DNA from: Bacillus sp. V5-8f
Lineage (GTDB): Bacteria; Bacillota; Bacilli; Bacillales; DSM-1321
Direction: 5' to 3'
DNA length: 64,000 nucleotides
Assembly (NCBI RefSeq): GCF_002863565.1
Contig: NZ_PGUW01000017.1
Span: 62,001 to 126,000 of the forward strand
In this document: positions 14,885-63,442 of the stretch, in pieces
Layout of the letters: each line of letters begins with the position of its first letter
Numbering within the stretch: the stretch's first letter is position 1
Program-made: the position numbers and the translations under genes
Notes under the pieces: generated by a model
Seen by the model: the letters and a program-made list of their open reading frames with translations, nothing else
Told to the model about the DNA's origin: nothing
Database searches by the model: none

Positions 14885-15003
14885 CCTATACAAATAAAGG
14901 GCTTGCATAATAGGGGAAATGTCAGAATTTAGAGATTCAAAAAGTCTGAATTACAATTCCCTATGAAACACGTTTTTAAAGCCCGCACAAAAGATTAATA
15001 TTT

Positions 15004-15129
15004 GTCCTTCGGGGTCGGGTGAAAGTCCCAACCGGCGGTGATGAAGCAATTCTAAGCCCGCGAGCCTAACGAAAGGCACGATTTGGTGTGATTCCAAAGC
15101 CGACAGTACAGTCTGGATGGGAGAAGGAC
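15004..15129 (+). ncRNA. FMN riboswitch (RFN element)
   Basis: All hallmark blocks are present in order: GGGGTCGGGTGAAAGTCCC, ACCGGCGGT, AAGCCCGCGAGC, AGGCACGATTTGGTGTGATT, CCGACAGT and AGTCTGGATGGGAGAAGG. The closing stem P1 pairs GTCCTTC (15004-15010) with GAAGGAC (15123-15129). GGGAGAA in the 3' part is complementary to TTCTCCC at about 15212-15218, giving an alternative pairing that could act as antiterminator. FMN binding would favour the terminator at 15229. Confidence 0.96.
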
Positions 15130-15228
15130 ACAGGAAAAATATATAAGCTTAAAGTCTATTGGAAAAATATTGTTTAAATAGGCTTATTTCGTTGTATATT
15201 TTGTAAACAATTTCTCCCTTTAATAACG

Positions 15229-56904: not shown

Positions 56905-56980
56905 GGAGCAGTTTCTGGAGAGATCGCAAATCTTTGCGACGCCGAAGGGTTCACAATCTCAGGCAAAAGGACAGAAGTAT
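56905..56980 (+). ncRNA. Glycine riboswitch, single aptamer
   Basis: Contains the conserved core in order: CTGGAGAG, a P2-like hairpin TCGCAAA/TTTGCGA, CGCCGAAGGG, and CTCAGGCAAAAGGACAG. Only one aptamer is complete; upstream GCTAGGGGTCAAACTTTAGC (about 56884-56903) may form the supporting ghost stem of singlet types. A terminator lies 70 nt further on, then a glycine/alanine-type permease gene. Sequence between 56644 and 56904 is AT-rich and probably holds the promoter (TATAAT near 56806). Confidence 0.85.
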
Positions 56981-57051
56981 AATAAAATATTATTTATTAT
57001 TCTATTGATTCACGAGGATAATACAGTGTATTTTTTATATTCTGAAGCCTA

Positions 57052-57082: not shown

Positions 57083-57155
57083 TACCCAAAAAAGGAGTAG
57101 GTATAATTTTTTGGATAAATACTAGCTTTTACAATACAGCATGGGGGAATTTATC

Positions 57156-59444: not shown

Positions 59445-59795
59445 TCATTTAATCGGAAAAAATTTTGTAGAGTTCCAATATCGTGCATTTGCGTCCCTCC
59501 GAATGTTTCACAACCAGGTTTCGAACCGGAACTCCGGACCCTTCGTGAATGTCTAGCATCCAGGTTTCAAAGAGACAATCTGGCAGTTCCGAGCGTTTCG
59601 GAAGGTCGATTCAAAGTAGGGTTTATCATACATAATATAGATGACCGGATGATTTTGGTCGCTGTAAGGAACGAATTCTTTCAGGAACTGAGTTGATTGT
59701 CTGTTTTATCTTTTCTTCCAATGATGATCATCCCAAATGGGAATAAATAAAAAAGGATCTCCAGCCTTGAAGATCCATTTACACATATCACCTAT
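59445..59795. other. Intergenic region with a possible coding relic
   Basis: The minus strand from about 59703 to 59557 stays open and reads FLKEFVPYSDQNHPVIYIMY, then DKPYFESTFRNARNCQIVSL, with protein-like composition but no start codon or ribosome binding site, closed by TAG. It may be the end of a lost gene. A leftward terminator (GGATCT / AGATCC, 59755-59776, with a T-run on the minus strand) belongs to the gene at 59796. Nothing else seen. Confidence 0.35.
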
Positions 59796-59993
59796 TCAGT
59801 CTAAAATTTTAAACCTTAGCAACTTTCCAGATCTTTTTGTTTTTCTTGGTGGAACCAGCTTTTGATATTTTAGATTCAAACTTTCCAAGGTATCCTCGAT
59901 AAAGAACTGCAGGTCACAATCAGTAACAGGGATTTCTAGCTCTCCTTTTTTCCTTAATTCCGCTATTTTTTCCTCGTAATTCGTTTGCAGCAT
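59796..59993 (-). CDS. Small protein, 65 residues, unknown function
   Basis: MLQTNYEEKIAELRKKGELE, then VTDCDLQFFIEDTLESLNLK and a basic end (PPRKTKRSGKLLRFKILD). GAGGTGAAGGATC precedes ATG 59993 and a terminator follows at 59755. Soluble, with an acidic middle and basic tail, possibly nucleic-acid-associated. No family recognised. Confidence 0.6.
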   Translation of the reverse strand: MLQTNYEEKIAELRKKGELEIPVTDCDLQFFIEDTLESLNLKYQKLVPPRKTKRSGKLLRFKILD

Positions 59994-60181
59994 GATCCTT
60001 CACCTCATTTTTACTATATTGATAACTTCATATCTTATAAGTACGATATTACATAAAAAATTTCCTTGTATTTAAAGTCTTTTTTGTCGCACTGTGTAAA
60101 ATATTTTTCCTCCCGTACAGGTATTCTTTTAGTGCACAAGCATATAATATATTGTGTCACATAATTAACAAGCCGCTTCGT

Positions 60182-60210
60182 TTGACGGCGACAGTTCTAT
60201 ACCATATAAT
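60182..60210 (+). promoter_or_regulatory. Sigma-A promoter of the Mn-riboswitch transcript
   Basis: TTGACG (60182-60187), 17 bp, TATAAT (60205-60210). Transcription would begin near 60217, shortly before the riboswitch. Confidence 0.8.
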
Positions 60211-60233
60211 CAAGTTATAATATGAATTTTTCA

Positions 60234-60327
60234 TTTAAGGGGAGTAGCTGGATACAGCAAAGTCGTCAGTCCGGGATATCATATCCTCGGCTTTGTTGGC
60301 AACTCACGTTGTTAGCGAGACCTTGCC
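60234..60327 (+). ncRNA. yybP-ykoY (Mn2+) riboswitch
   Basis: Conserved blocks in the right order: AAGGGGAGTAGCTG, CAAAGTCGTCAGTCCGGG, a short hairpin, CCTCGGCTTTGTTGGC, ACGTTGTTAGCGAGACCTTGCC. The pairing of AAAG..GTCGTCA with GGCTTTG and the closing AAGG/CCTTG match the yybP-ykoY class, known to sense Mn2+. The 3' strand of the closing stem (60318-60327) is also the left arm of a terminator, so metal binding would turn the genes on. From 59994 to 60181 nothing else is seen. Confidence 0.88.
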
Positions 60328-60352
60328 GTTTATTTGGCTAGGTCTTTTATTT
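60318..60352 (+). terminator. Riboswitch expression-platform terminator
   Basis: AGACCTTGCC / GGCTAGGTCT (one mismatch), 8-nt loop, TTTTATTTG. The left arm is shared with the riboswitch closing stem, so the two structures exclude each other. Confidence 0.75.
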
Positions 60353-60356
60353 GTTT

Positions 60357-60398
60357 AGAGACGTTATGGCCAGGGAAACGGTTATAACGTCTCTTTTT
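60357..60398 (+). terminator. Second terminator in the leader
   Basis: AGAGACGTTAT / ATAACGTCTCT perfect 11-bp stem, followed by TTTTTG, 12 nt after the first terminator and 45 nt before the kinase gene. A second barrier to read-through. Confidence 0.8.
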
Positions 60399-60442
60399 GT
60401 TTTATCTGAAAAAGGAATTCCTACTGAAAGGAGCTGAGAAAT

Positions 60443-61072
60443 ATGCCAGGATATAGCAGTCTTGCAGAAAGTGTACAGATAGGCATAGAGAAAAACAGGG
60501 CTATACTGTTGCAGTTTGATGAGTCTTTGGAGTTAATCGGAGAGGGCAGGAGCGCTTACGTTTTCAGAATTCGGTCAACCAATAAAGCCTTAAAAGTGTT
60601 TTTTCCGGACCATATTCATGTGGCACGGGAAGAAGCGGAAATCTATAAAATTCTCAAGGGCATTCCTTATTATCCAACCTTATATGATTCAGGGGAAAAT
60701 TACTTAGTGATCGACTTTATAGAAGGAAAAACCTTGTTTGAATGTTTGGTTCACGGGATTCAAGTCAGCCAGGAACAAGTCAACGAAATTGACCATGCCT
60801 TGCACTTAGCACGAAAAGAAGGCCTTAATCCGTCAGATATACATTTGCGGAATATTCTCATTACCTCAGACCAAGAAATCAAAGTTATCGATGTGGCTAG
60901 GTTCAGGCAGACCAAACAATGCAGGCAATGGAAAGATCTTAAATCCGCTTTTTACAAAGCGTATGTAAAACCGTTTTTTCCTAAGAAAATACCTGCTTCT
61001 ATCCTGAATTTTATTGCTGCTCTTTATAAGAAGAGCCTGATTTCAAATGTTGCTCTTGGAAATTCGAAGTAA
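60443..61072 (+). CDS. Small protein-kinase-like protein (YrzF-like)
   Basis: 209 residues with a minimal kinase fold. A glycine-rich loop (IGEGRSAYVFRI, residues 32-43) is followed by the ATP-anchoring lysine in ALKVFF (Lys51) and acidic helix-C residues (REEAEIYKIL). The hinge is YLVIDFIEG. The catalytic loop is SDIHLRNILI with Asp132 and Asn137, and VIDVARF holds the metal Asp150. No large C-lobe extension, as in YrzF/RIO-type bacterial kinases. AAAGGAGCTGAGAAAT precedes the ATG. It is the first gene behind a Mn2+ riboswitch and two terminators; a lipoprotein gene follows 30 bp downstream. Substrate unknown. Confidence 0.85.
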   Translation: MPGYSSLAESVQIGIEKNRAILLQFDESLELIGEGRSAYVFRIRSTNKALKVFFPDHIHVAREEAEIYKILKGIPYYPTLYDSGENYLVIDFIEGKTLFECLVHGIQVSQEQVNEIDHALHLARKEGLNPSDIHLRNILITSDQEIKVIDVARFRQTKQCRQWKDLKSAFYKAYVKPFFPKKIPASILNFIAALYKKSLISNVALGNSK

Positions 61073-61102
61073 CAAAATACAATCAATTGGGGGTAAGTCT
61101 TG

Positions 61103-61549
61103 ATGAAAAGGATCATCACCACGCTTGGATTGTTGTCAATGCTCCTATTAGGCGGATGCTCGTTACTCGAGGAGGCCAACAATTCATTGGATTATGCAGA
61201 GAAAGCAACTAATTATCTTGATAAGGCAAGCCAATTTGCTGAGGATGTGCCTCAGATGGCACAGGATGCCGTTACAAACCAGGAAGCCAGGAAATCTCTG
61301 GAGAACGAACTTATCTCCATGAAAGAAGAAATCAAAAACTTCAATGAAACGAAAGCCCCGACTATCGCTGAAGACATTCACAACCAAATAATCGAGTATA
61401 ATGGAAAACTAAATAACGGAATCGATTCGTATTTGAAAAACATTGAAAACGGCAAGTGGGATCCCGCCATCCTGCAGGATTCCGAAATTATGAAGACAGT
61501 AAATGAACTCTCAAGCCTTATTGATAAGGTTGAAAACTTAGGATTATAA
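61103..61549 (+). CDS. Lipoprotein, DUF6376-like
   Basis: 148 residues. Lipobox LLLGGC with the lipidated Cys at residue 19 after MKRIITTLGLLSM. The mature part is almost entirely helical and acidic (LDYAEKATNYLDKASQFAED, KSLENELISMKEEIKNFNET), typical of DUF6376-type Bacillus lipoproteins. ATG 61103 is preferred over the TTG directly before it (GGGGGTAAG upstream). Probably co-transcribed with the kinase under the Mn2+ riboswitch. Anchored on the outer face of the membrane; function unknown. Confidence 0.8.
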   Translation: MKRIITTLGLLSMLLLGGCSLLEEANNSLDYAEKATNYLDKASQFAEDVPQMAQDAVTNQEARKSLENELISMKEEIKNFNETKAPTIAEDIHNQIIEYNGKLNNGIDSYLKNIENGKWDPAILQDSEIMKTVNELSSLIDKVENLGL

Positions 61550-62296
61550 CACGTGCACAGAATCACTTTCTTTTTAGGAGGTGATTTTTTTAAAATTAAG
61601 GAACTCTTGATTTCATATTGGAAATAGGAATCAGAAAAAAGTAGATATCCTTTTTCATATTAAGAATAAGCCCAAAAGTTTGCGGTGATGAGACCTTTAG
61701 GACTGAATGAGGGATCAACCCGATTACTTGGTACAACATAAGGCGATGTATAGTCATAACATGTATAACCGCCCTTACCTTCATTTTTCTTTATAAGGTA
61801 ACCAAACCTTCTGTATTGGGATCAACGAAAAGACCTTCAAGAGCCTAGTAGTTTAAGAGTCCGATTTTACGCTTCTTCTTTGTGTTTCAATTTCATAAAT
61901 TTTTAAATGGTTTTAATCTATGTATCTTTTATTTTCTTTGATATAATATTGTGTATTCAGAAAATTTAGATATTAAATTTTCGATAATAATGGAAAAAGT
62001 TGTAAATTGCGTTTCTATTGCCGTTATCACCGGTATTTCATCCTGGTTAGGGGTAGTCAGAAATTTGAAAGATAGAAAAGCTTTTACAACGGATATATAT
62101 GAGCAAAAAAGGAAGCGCTTTCAAAAAAGGGGGTAGGTCAGTGTTAACTTGTTAAGGCTGATGTAACAAATAAACAATTGTATAAAACGCCTAAACCTCG
62201 ACGATGCACAAATTCGGTTCAACTAAGACCGTTACAATTGTGCTGAAACGCAGCTGAAATGAATGGTATACAACCGAATGATGAGGAGAATCAATA
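61550..62296. other. Intergenic region without a supported gene
   Basis: A 61-codon open frame (61951-62136, VNCVSIAVITGISSWLGVV with a basic tail) has one hydrophobic stretch but neither ribosome binding site nor recognisable family; it may be a relic or a small membrane peptide. AAGGAACTC / AGGAGGTGATT sequences near 61580 are not followed by a frame. The last 60 bp contain ATGAGGAGAATC, the ribosome binding site of the next gene. Confidence 0.4.
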
Positions 62297-63442
62297 ATGA
62301 GACACTTATATTTAACTGAAGAACATGATATCTTTCGTAAATCATTGAGGAAGTTTCTCGATAAAGAAGCATATCCATATTATGATCAATGGGAAAAAGA
62401 CAGGATGATTCCACGGTCCTTTTGGAGTAAACTTGGTGAGCAAAGATTTCTTTGTCCGGATATCGACGAACAATATGGCGGATCCGGTGTCGATTGGGGA
62501 TTTGCTGTCGTCATTAATGAAGAATTGGAGCGTGTAGGATCAGGCCTGGTGGGTGTAGGCCTGCACAGTGATATTGTCGTTCCATATATCACAGCGTATG
62601 GAACAGAAGAGCAAAAACAGCGATGGCTTCCCAAGTGCGCGACCGGTGAAATCATTACAGCAATCGCAATGACGGAACCGGGTACAGGTTCAGACCTGGC
62701 CAATATAAAAACGACAGCAATTCTAGATGGGGATCACTATGTTTTAAACGGTCAAAAAACCTTCATTACAAACGGGATCCTGTCGGATTTAATCATTGTA
62801 GCCTGTAAAACAAATCCAAATGCGGTTCCAAAACATAAGGGAGTAAGCCTGATTGCGATCGAAAGGGATACACCTGGCTTTTCAAGGGGCCGGAAGCTGG
62901 ATAAGGTAGGGTTGCATTGCCAAGATACAGCAGAATTAATTTTTGAAGATTGTCGTGTGCCAAAGGAAAACTTGATTGGGGCAGAAGGAAAAGGTTTTAT
63001 ATACCTTATGGAAAAGCTGCAGCAGGAGCGTTTAATAGTAGCGATTGCAGCCCAAGTAGCCGCAGAAGATATGTTTGAAATCACACTCGATTATGTAAAG
63101 TCGAGGGAAGCTTTTGGCAAACCGATTGGCAATTTCCAAAATACTCAATTTAAAATAGCCGAAATGGCCACAGAAATTGAGATGGGAAGAGCGTTCCTTG
63201 ATCAACTCATTGCCAGTCATATTGCAGGGGAGGATATCGTGACCAAGGTATCGATGGCCAAATGGAAGCTGACTGAGATGGCAAGGGAAGTTGCGGCACA
63301 GTGCATGCAGCTGCACGGGGGATACGGCTATATGGAAGAATACAAAATTGCAAGGAGATACCGGGATATCCCTGTGGCAAGCATCTATGCGGGCACAAAT
63401 GAAATTATGAAAACCATCATTGCAAAAAACCTCGGGCTATAA
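62297..63442 (+). CDS. Acyl-CoA dehydrogenase
   Basis: Oxidises acyl-CoA to enoyl-CoA using FAD, the first step of beta-oxidation. 381 residues, the usual length. FAD- and substrate-binding motifs are IAMTEPGTGSDLANI near residue 117 and LNGQKTFITNG near 148. REAFGKPIGNFQ lies near 269 and MQLHGGYGYMEEYKIARRYRD near 335. The catalytic base is expected in the segment YAGTNEIMKTIIAK near 365. GAGGAGAATCAATA precedes the ATG. It is followed by an acyl-CoA synthetase gene 99 bp downstream, suggesting a fatty-acid-use operon. Chain-length preference is unknown. Confidence 0.92.
   Translation: MRHLYLTEEHDIFRKSLRKFLDKEAYPYYDQWEKDRMIPRSFWSKLGEQRFLCPDIDEQYGGSGVDWGFAVVINEELERVGSGLVGVGLHSDIVVPYITAYGTEEQKQRWLPKCATGEIITAIAMTEPGTGSDLANIKTTAILDGDHYVLNGQKTFITNGILSDLIIVACKTNPNAVPKHKGVSLIAIERDTPGFSRGRKLDKVGLHCQDTAELIFEDCRVPKENLIGAEGKGFIYLMEKLQQERLIVAIAAQVAAEDMFEITLDYVKSREAFGKPIGNFQNTQFKIAEMATEIEMGRAFLDQLIASHIAGEDIVTKVSMAKWKLTEMAREVAAQCMQLHGGYGYMEEYKIARRYRDIPVASIYAGTNEIMKTIIAKNLGL

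Follow-up and report, generated by a model that had tools for sequence, protein, structure and literature searches.

A manganese-class riboswitch with two serial terminators ahead of a small protein-kinase-like gene in Bacillus sp. V5-8f

Analysis of a 64,000-nucleotide stretch of DNA from Bacillus sp. V5-8f (contig NZ_PGUW01000017.1, positions 62,001 to 126,000; here called the window and numbered from its first letter) revealed a compact locus at 60182–61549 that consists, in this order, of a promoter, a yybP-ykoY riboswitch, terminator 1, terminator 2, a small protein-kinase-like gene, and a gene for a DUF6376 lipoprotein. Judged by sequence comparison, the pairing of riboswitch and kinase is conserved across many Bacillales, and it looks like a real, little-studied branch of how these bacteria respond to manganese. 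Exporters, TerC proteins, and metal ATPases are known targets of Mn2+ riboswitches. The riboswitch belongs to a known class, and the kinase target and the paired terminators are the novel features. Every sequence element claimed in an initial annotation of this DNA was found where that annotation had placed it.

60182–60210, + strand: sigma-A type promoter, TTGACG (60182–60187), N17, TATAAT (60205–60210), 11 of 12 consensus matches
60231–60331, + strand: Mn2+ (yybP-ykoY) riboswitch aptamer, assigned by class; covariance model R1, 72.3 bits, E 3e-19
60239–60247, + strand: aptamer L1 loop GGGGAGTAG, read in the sequence; invariant in 23 aligned leaders
60318–60345, + strand: terminator 1, a −14.1 kcal/mol hairpin followed by a U tract
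60333–60374, + strand: candidate antiterminator of terminator 2, in which 60333–60347 pairs with 60357–60374; −12.4 kcal/mol, z −2.57
60357–60394, + strand: terminator 2, 15 pairs
60443–61072, + strand: small protein-kinase-like gene, an open reading frame (ORF) of 209 residues; AGGAG ribosome-binding site assigned by eye
61103–61549, + strand: DUF6376 lipoprotein gene, 148 residues; PF19903, 147 bits, E 3.5e-43, positions 1–116 of 116

We consider it likely that the locus is a Mn2+-inducible operon in which aptamer and terminator 1 compete, both terminators are released at high Mn2+, and the lipoprotein acts as a helper at the membrane. By phosphorylating its substrate, the kinase would adjust the handling of Mn2+ or the metalation that is linked to export; it is placed there because the same family ends Mn2+ riboswitch operons that contain TerC. 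Mn2+ as the ligand and induction as the response are taken from the class and are putative here. Use of Mn2+ as a cofactor by the kinase, suggested in the initial annotation, is likewise putative. If the conserved kinase target is real, these bacteria would respond to an excess of Mn2+ with phosphorylation in addition to metal transport, and TerC-linked metalation would be the place to look. Neither a kinase of this kind nor DUF6376 was found as the target of a Mn2+ riboswitch in the portions of the literature searched.

The aptamer and its promoter

The element is assigned to the Mn2+ riboswitch class by its architecture and not as a gathering-level member of RF00080. A scan of the whole 64-kb window at the Rfam gathering score did not report the aptamer, and in a permissive local scan RF00080 was the best family (60227–60313, 21.4 bits, E 5.8e-4) with a score well short of the cut-off of 45, which weighs against the assignment. 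That cut-off appears too strict for the lineage, as indicated by L002, an element of this genome immediately ahead of a TerC gene, which also falls below it at 38.1 bits, and by the five RF00080 matches in that genome, only one of which lies above the cut-off and among which the window copy is absent. We therefore built a covariance model, R1, from an alignment (A1) of nine riboswitches (L001–L005, L036, L054, L065, and L066) that excludes the window and whose members mostly precede TerC, FbpB-family, or DUF5392 genes. Across the 64-kb window, 60231–60331 is the sole R1 match up to E 1, and 20 selected genomes hold one to six elements each, with six in the genome of the window. The initial annotation's claim of a Mn2+-class riboswitch holds at 72.3 bits with this lineage-matched model and does not hold at the RF00080 gathering score, and the covariance-model check that it had proposed divides in the same way.

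The residues of the aptamer core are all in place, with L1 (GGGGAGUAG) at 60239–60247 and the L3 adenosine and cytosine at 60268 and 60272. We take 60268 to be the equivalent of the Mn2+-sensing A41 of the Lactococcus lactis riboswitch, a mapping made through the Rfam alignment and the L. lactis sequence. Across the 23 aligned leaders, L1 and the equivalents of A41 and C45 do not vary. The Mn2+-sensing role of A41 and the role of C45 in L. lactis are those given in the excerpted part of PMC9190785.

Could the aptamer have drifted to another cation, or be a decayed remnant? In addition to its sub-threshold RF00080 score, it scores lowest with R1 among the six riboswitches of its genome (72.3 versus 85.9–101.6 bits, the other five being R1 training sequences), and the GUCC that follows the sensing adenosine is shared only with L007, the other 21 of the 23 leaders having GUAC, AUAC, UUAC, UUUC, or GCAC. 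The invariance of L1 and of the two L3 residues, the intact stems P1 and P3, the intact terminators, and the conserved promoter all argue against such a loss, and we regard it as very improbable.

The promoter, which the initial annotation had read as TTGACG-N17-TATAAT, was located as such, although a single match of this kind is unremarkable by itself, with 11 promoter-like sites in 59700–62300 versus 8.4 expected. Its conservation across homologous leaders is evident from their sequences: all 91 distinct upstream regions carry a promoter with at least 9 of 12 consensus matches, and 67 of the 91 one with at least 11, levels that 16% and 0.3% of mononucleotide shuffles reach, respectively. Among 25 printed rows of homologous leaders, the promoter ends 28–49 nucleotides 5' of the L1 loop. 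The leader itself (60225–60412) folds with a z score of −7.1 relative to dinucleotide shuffles, none of 200 being equally stable.

The yybP-ykoY leader of Halalkalibacterium halodurans is described, in the available part of PMC10898510, as a Mn2+ ON switch in vitro that acts through an intrinsic terminator. The switches before TerC (ykoY/meeY) in H. halodurans and before yoaB in L. lactis have in common with the window an L1/L3 core and a P1 that is shared with a terminator, and the same ON logic is expected for the window leader (PMC10898510 and PMC9190785, both as excerpted). The target in the window differs from those systems, being a kinase and a lipoprotein with no transporter or TerC.

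The kinase, the lipoprotein, and their association with the riboswitch

The initial annotation had described a kinase-like protein of 209 residues, a description borne out by a full catalytic set and 44 homologues. Residues G33, G35, K51, E64, D132, N137, and D150 are invariant in these homologues; by the usual roles of such residues, we take them to be the Gly-rich loop, the Lys, the α-C Glu, the catalytic Asp and Asn, and the metal-binding Asp. The protein has the two-lobed kinase fold and, given its complete set of catalytic residues, is probably active. Its fold and catalytic residues are common to RIO2/Bud32-type and PknB-type Ser/Thr kinases. RIO and PknB kinase families have, respectively, a RIO N-terminal domain and PASTA and membrane parts, whereas the window kinase is a single domain of about 200 residues without any of these. 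Enzymes of similar size, RIO/Bud32-like and Ark1-like, can phosphorylate RNA or small molecules rather than protein, and a substrate of that sort is a possibility that we take seriously while doubting it. The window kinase scores 28.9 bits with PF00069, below the 31.7-bit cut-off, and its identity with 1tqi and 1o6y is about 21% over aligned residues. Against a non-protein substrate, PF00069 is the commonest profile match in the family (38 of 44 members), and the PDB profile matches, among the 60 of 562 listed, are mostly to Ser/Thr kinases.

The genome of the window has one kinase match, the window copy. Three genomes of the genus carry broken kinase copies (L029, L070, and L071). In L029, the riboswitch has decayed too (24.7 bits), consistent with joint loss of switch and gene, but in L071 the riboswitch is intact.

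The closest named relatives of the window locus are Peribacillus, and the order of riboswitch and kinase, which the initial annotation had suggested looking for in relatives, extends well beyond the genus. A kinase homologue is present at E 0.001 in 80 of 101 related genomes, from which we took 66 kinase loci: the 30 best and another 36 selected from lower ranks, most of them more distant. Of these 66 loci, 44 have a same-strand R1 match upstream of the kinase, namely 30 of the 30 best and 14 of the 36 others; the 44 include three R1 training sequences (L036, L065, and L066) and one weak match of 24.7 bits beside a broken kinase (L029). In L054, there is an R1 element upstream of the kinase but on the opposite strand. 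A second set, overlapping the first, comprises the best 80 of 246 named relatives, which are the closest ones. An R1 element is found in 69 of these 80 loci, always upstream on the kinase strand within about 2.1 kb; the 69 include L110, which coincides with training sequence L036, and a weak match of 24.7 bits (L111). The loci without a same-strand upstream riboswitch, 11 of the 80 and 22 of the 66, count against a general pairing. All 22 are among the 36 added, mostly more distant loci, and the rate of association falls with distance. Among the 11, the contig reaches only a short way upstream in L105 and L120 and 3 kb in the other nine.

In some genera, gene order places the kinase as the final gene of a Mn2+ riboswitch operon with FbpB-family, Spo0M-like, or TerC genes, the neighbor families being assigned by Pfam:

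L133 and L136: riboswitch, FbpB-family small protein, Spo0M-like protein, TerC, kinase
L158: riboswitch, TerC, kinase
L160: riboswitch, short ORF of no assigned family, FbpB-family, Spo0M-like, kinase
L165 and L168: riboswitch, Spo0M-like, kinase (order called by script)
L110 and L122: riboswitch, FbpB-family, kinase

In L065 and L066, riboswitch and TerC are followed by a kinase of a second subfamily (30% identical). The genome of the window holds another Mn2+ riboswitch (L005) followed by FbpB-family, Spo0M-like, DUF1232, and TerC genes, the stretch ending inside TerC. In Bacillus subtilis, the TerC proteins MeeF and MeeY help to load exported enzymes with metal and also show Mn efflux activity, and a Mn2+ riboswitch precedes meeY, according to the excerpts of PMC12096827 and PMC10550928.

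The second gene of the window operon encodes a full-length match to DUF6376, its 147 bits standing against a PF19903 cut-off of 27.3. A signal helix is followed by the lipobox LLGGC (LGGC), whose Cys19 is invariant in 34 aligned homologues, so the protein fits the criteria for bacterial lipoproteins and is predicted to be lipidated. Its structure model is helical (predicted local distance difference test score 88.9), and none of the structure matches of the model stands out. The helical lipoprotein of the initial annotation is upheld by the family match, the invariant Cys19, and the predicted helical model.

The linkage of this gene to the kinase is patchy. In 28 of the 30 closest loci, 34–89 nucleotides separate the end of the kinase match from the start of DUF6376, which is linked in 23 of the 80 named loci (18 downstream of the kinase and 5 between riboswitch and kinase). 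In 17 genomes, it lies away from the kinase; two of these copies (L072 and L085) stand directly behind a riboswitch without a kinase, and the other 15 have no riboswitch directly upstream. The core association is therefore that of riboswitch and kinase, with the lipoprotein as a recurrent, narrower partner. As to the module of kinase and lipoprotein proposed in the initial annotation, the conserved order of riboswitch and kinase stands, and the lipoprotein is no fixed part of it. The lipoprotein might be a neighbor carried along by read-through with no role in the Mn2+ response, as its presence in only 23 of 80 loci and the 15 of 17 separate copies without a riboswitch would suggest. The tight spacing behind the kinase in the closest loci, the position behind the riboswitch but ahead of the kinase in five more distant ones, and the copies directly behind a riboswitch in L072 and L085 amount to several arrangements and make a mere passenger unlikely. 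The lipoprotein would instead be a lineage-specific helper at the membrane.

Two minor features lie near DUF6376 genes. A conserved basic ORF of about 36–43 residues (MSKLSKLTQIAK..., MIKKLVKA...) is found between a Mn2+ riboswitch and DUF6376 in L135 (the same place as L038), L159, and L050; the one copy tested has no Pfam match. After the lipoprotein gene of the window, a weak inverted repeat followed by T's (61561–61591, AATCAC ... GTGATTTTTTT) was noted by eye as a possible operon end and was not called by the scanner.

Two serial terminators and a possible relay between them

Terminator 1 takes its 5' arm from the 3' strand of P1, the closing stem of the aptamer, as the initial annotation had claimed, and CCUU at 60321–60324, which lies within that arm, can pair in P1. 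Because both use this strand, terminator 1 and the closed aptamer are mutually exclusive. The second terminator of that annotation is likewise present. Two serial terminators are the norm for these leaders: among 95 distinct leaders, collected by motif search among the loci then assembled, terminator 1 is found in 91, a second hairpin and U tract shortly 3' of it in 87, and both in 83. A second hairpin of −12 kcal/mol or better occurs in 84 of the 95 leaders versus 4 of 285 mononucleotide-shuffled controls. The leaders without a second terminator are L001, L002, L003, L023, L048, L065, L066, and L085. Four of these (L001, L002, L065, and L066) have TerC as the first gene and, unlike the window, a single terminator; in two other TerC leaders (L182 and L187), a second hairpin was seen by eye. 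Covariation of terminator 2 across 32 leaders is strong, with 46 double-change cells versus a shuffled mean of 11.5, a value reached by none of 500 shuffles. Such a strong second stop calls for explanation because release of terminator 1 by Mn2+ would, by itself, leave the gene closed.

Tandem riboswitch leaders (e.g. Na+/c-di-AMP) also place two serial terminators before a gene, but they have two aptamers, one per terminator, whereas in the window one aptamer would act on both. Mn2+ is listed among the classes not found in tandem arrangements in the part of a 2022 review that was available (PMC9481103).

A route by which one aptamer might reach both stops is suggested by the complementarity of 60333–60347, which in terminator 1 form the loop, the 3' arm, and the U tract, to 60357–60374, the 5' arm and the loop in terminator 2. 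When Mn2+ is scarce, P1 would be open, terminator 1 would form, and transcription would stop; terminator 2 would stop any escapees, the 3' half of terminator 1 being occupied. When Mn2+ is plentiful, the closed P1 would prevent terminator 1, and the freed 3' half would pair with the 5' half of terminator 2 as RNA polymerase moves through the latter. Both stops would then be lifted at high Mn2+ and the kinase made. If true, such a relay would be a simple route for one aptamer to tighter OFF control.

The complementarity is clear. To mimic the state in which closed P1 engages the 5' arm of terminator 1, we folded the stretch that covers the two halves without that arm and compared it with dinucleotide shuffles; its z score is negative in all 83 leaders, with a mean of −2.9 and values below −2 in 64. 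Standard pairs fill 90.1% of the antiterminator cells in 32 aligned leaders, versus 40–68% when the halves are slid relative to each other. Native halves also out-pair swapped halves, with none of 5000 permutations equal to them over 47 leaders, 15 of 5000 for the 33 leaders in which terminator 2 was not classed as a copy of terminator 1, and 141 of 5000 for the 14 copy leaders. The window and L007 have C-G at one antiterminator pair where most leaders carry U-A, such that terminator 1 reads GGC and terminator 2 GCC in place of the usual GGU and ACC. In minimum-energy states, the antiterminator is dominant in 78 of 80 leaders when the last 10 nucleotides of terminator 2 are withheld, in 58 of 81 when the last 8 are withheld, and in 5 of 81 at full length.

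Several observations weigh against the relay. Covariation of the antiterminator is modest, as 6 of 500 shuffles match its pairing, 17 of 500 its score, and 61 of 500 its double-changed pairs, and L163 disrupts exactly the pair that is changed on both sides in the window. Only 34 of 47 leaders (21 of 33 non-copy and 7 of 14 copy leaders) have native halves that pair better than the average of their own swaps. At full length, terminator 2 pairs equal or outnumber antiterminator pairs in 76 of 81 leaders, and a relay is therefore only possible kinetically, during transcription. The leaders are, moreover, related by ancestry, which inflates all of the antiterminator counts. With complementarity clear and covariation modest, these sequence comparisons favor the relay without proving it.

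Terminator 2 may instead be an ordinary fail-safe with a fixed leak, Mn2+ acting on terminator 1 alone and the kinase being induced from a low ceiling. The complementarity would then be a by-product, either of terminator 2 having been copied from terminator 1 or of facing A-rich and U-rich tracts. In at least 14 of 49 non-redundant leaders (the motif test missed a few), terminator 2 does look copied from terminator 1; full-length RNA favors it, and antiterminator covariation is weak beside that of terminator 2 itself. A by-product of composition is harder to reconcile with the advantage of native segments over shuffles that keep base and neighbor content, and one of copying with the pairing retained in leaders whose terminator 2 was not classed as a copy, where native halves still beat swapped ones. 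The GGC/GCC exchange in the window and L007 also speaks against the fail-safe, as does the limit that a −22 kcal/mol stop ahead of the gene would place on expression. We give the fail-safe slightly less than an even chance. Our tentative proposal, in which we place limited confidence, is that one Mn2+ aptamer runs a two-terminator domino across Bacillales, making a dedicated kinase, with or without lipoprotein, TerC, or FbpB-family partners, only at high Mn2+ as a phosphorylation arm of the manganese response.

Other genes and elements

FbpB is an iron-sparing factor, and a Mn2+-controlled member of its family is therefore unexpected. An operon of a Mn2+ riboswitch, an FbpB-family small basic protein (PF13040), a Spo0M-like protein, often DUF1232, and TerC nevertheless recurs in several genera (L005, L177, L186, L133, L136, and L130), its gene content varying by locus. 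A distinct protein kinase that exceeds the PF00069 cut-off is found behind a Mn2+ riboswitch in L179 (117.9 bits) and behind the window-type kinase in L041 (95.8 bits), each time after a short basic or tyrosine-rich ORF. Other genes behind Mn2+ riboswitches (L170, L171, L174, L183, L003, L176, and L185) encode proteins that are, by eye, CNNM/CorC-like, Ca2+/cation exchanger-like, SulP-like, and UppP-like, as well as DUF5392, the last assigned by Pfam for L003 only.

Two kinase leaders (L011 2137–2304 and L112 2790–2962) match the Enterococcus small RNA EF3314_EF3315 (RF02634) over its full length at 33.8–35.7 bits, below its cut-off of 100; that RNA may itself be a Mn2+ riboswitch leader. Elsewhere in the window, the Rfam scan identified two further riboswitches:

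15001–15132: flavin mononucleotide (FMN) riboswitch, whole-window scan at gathering level
56905–56984: single-aptamer glycine riboswitch, preceding an amino-acid permease gene at 57141
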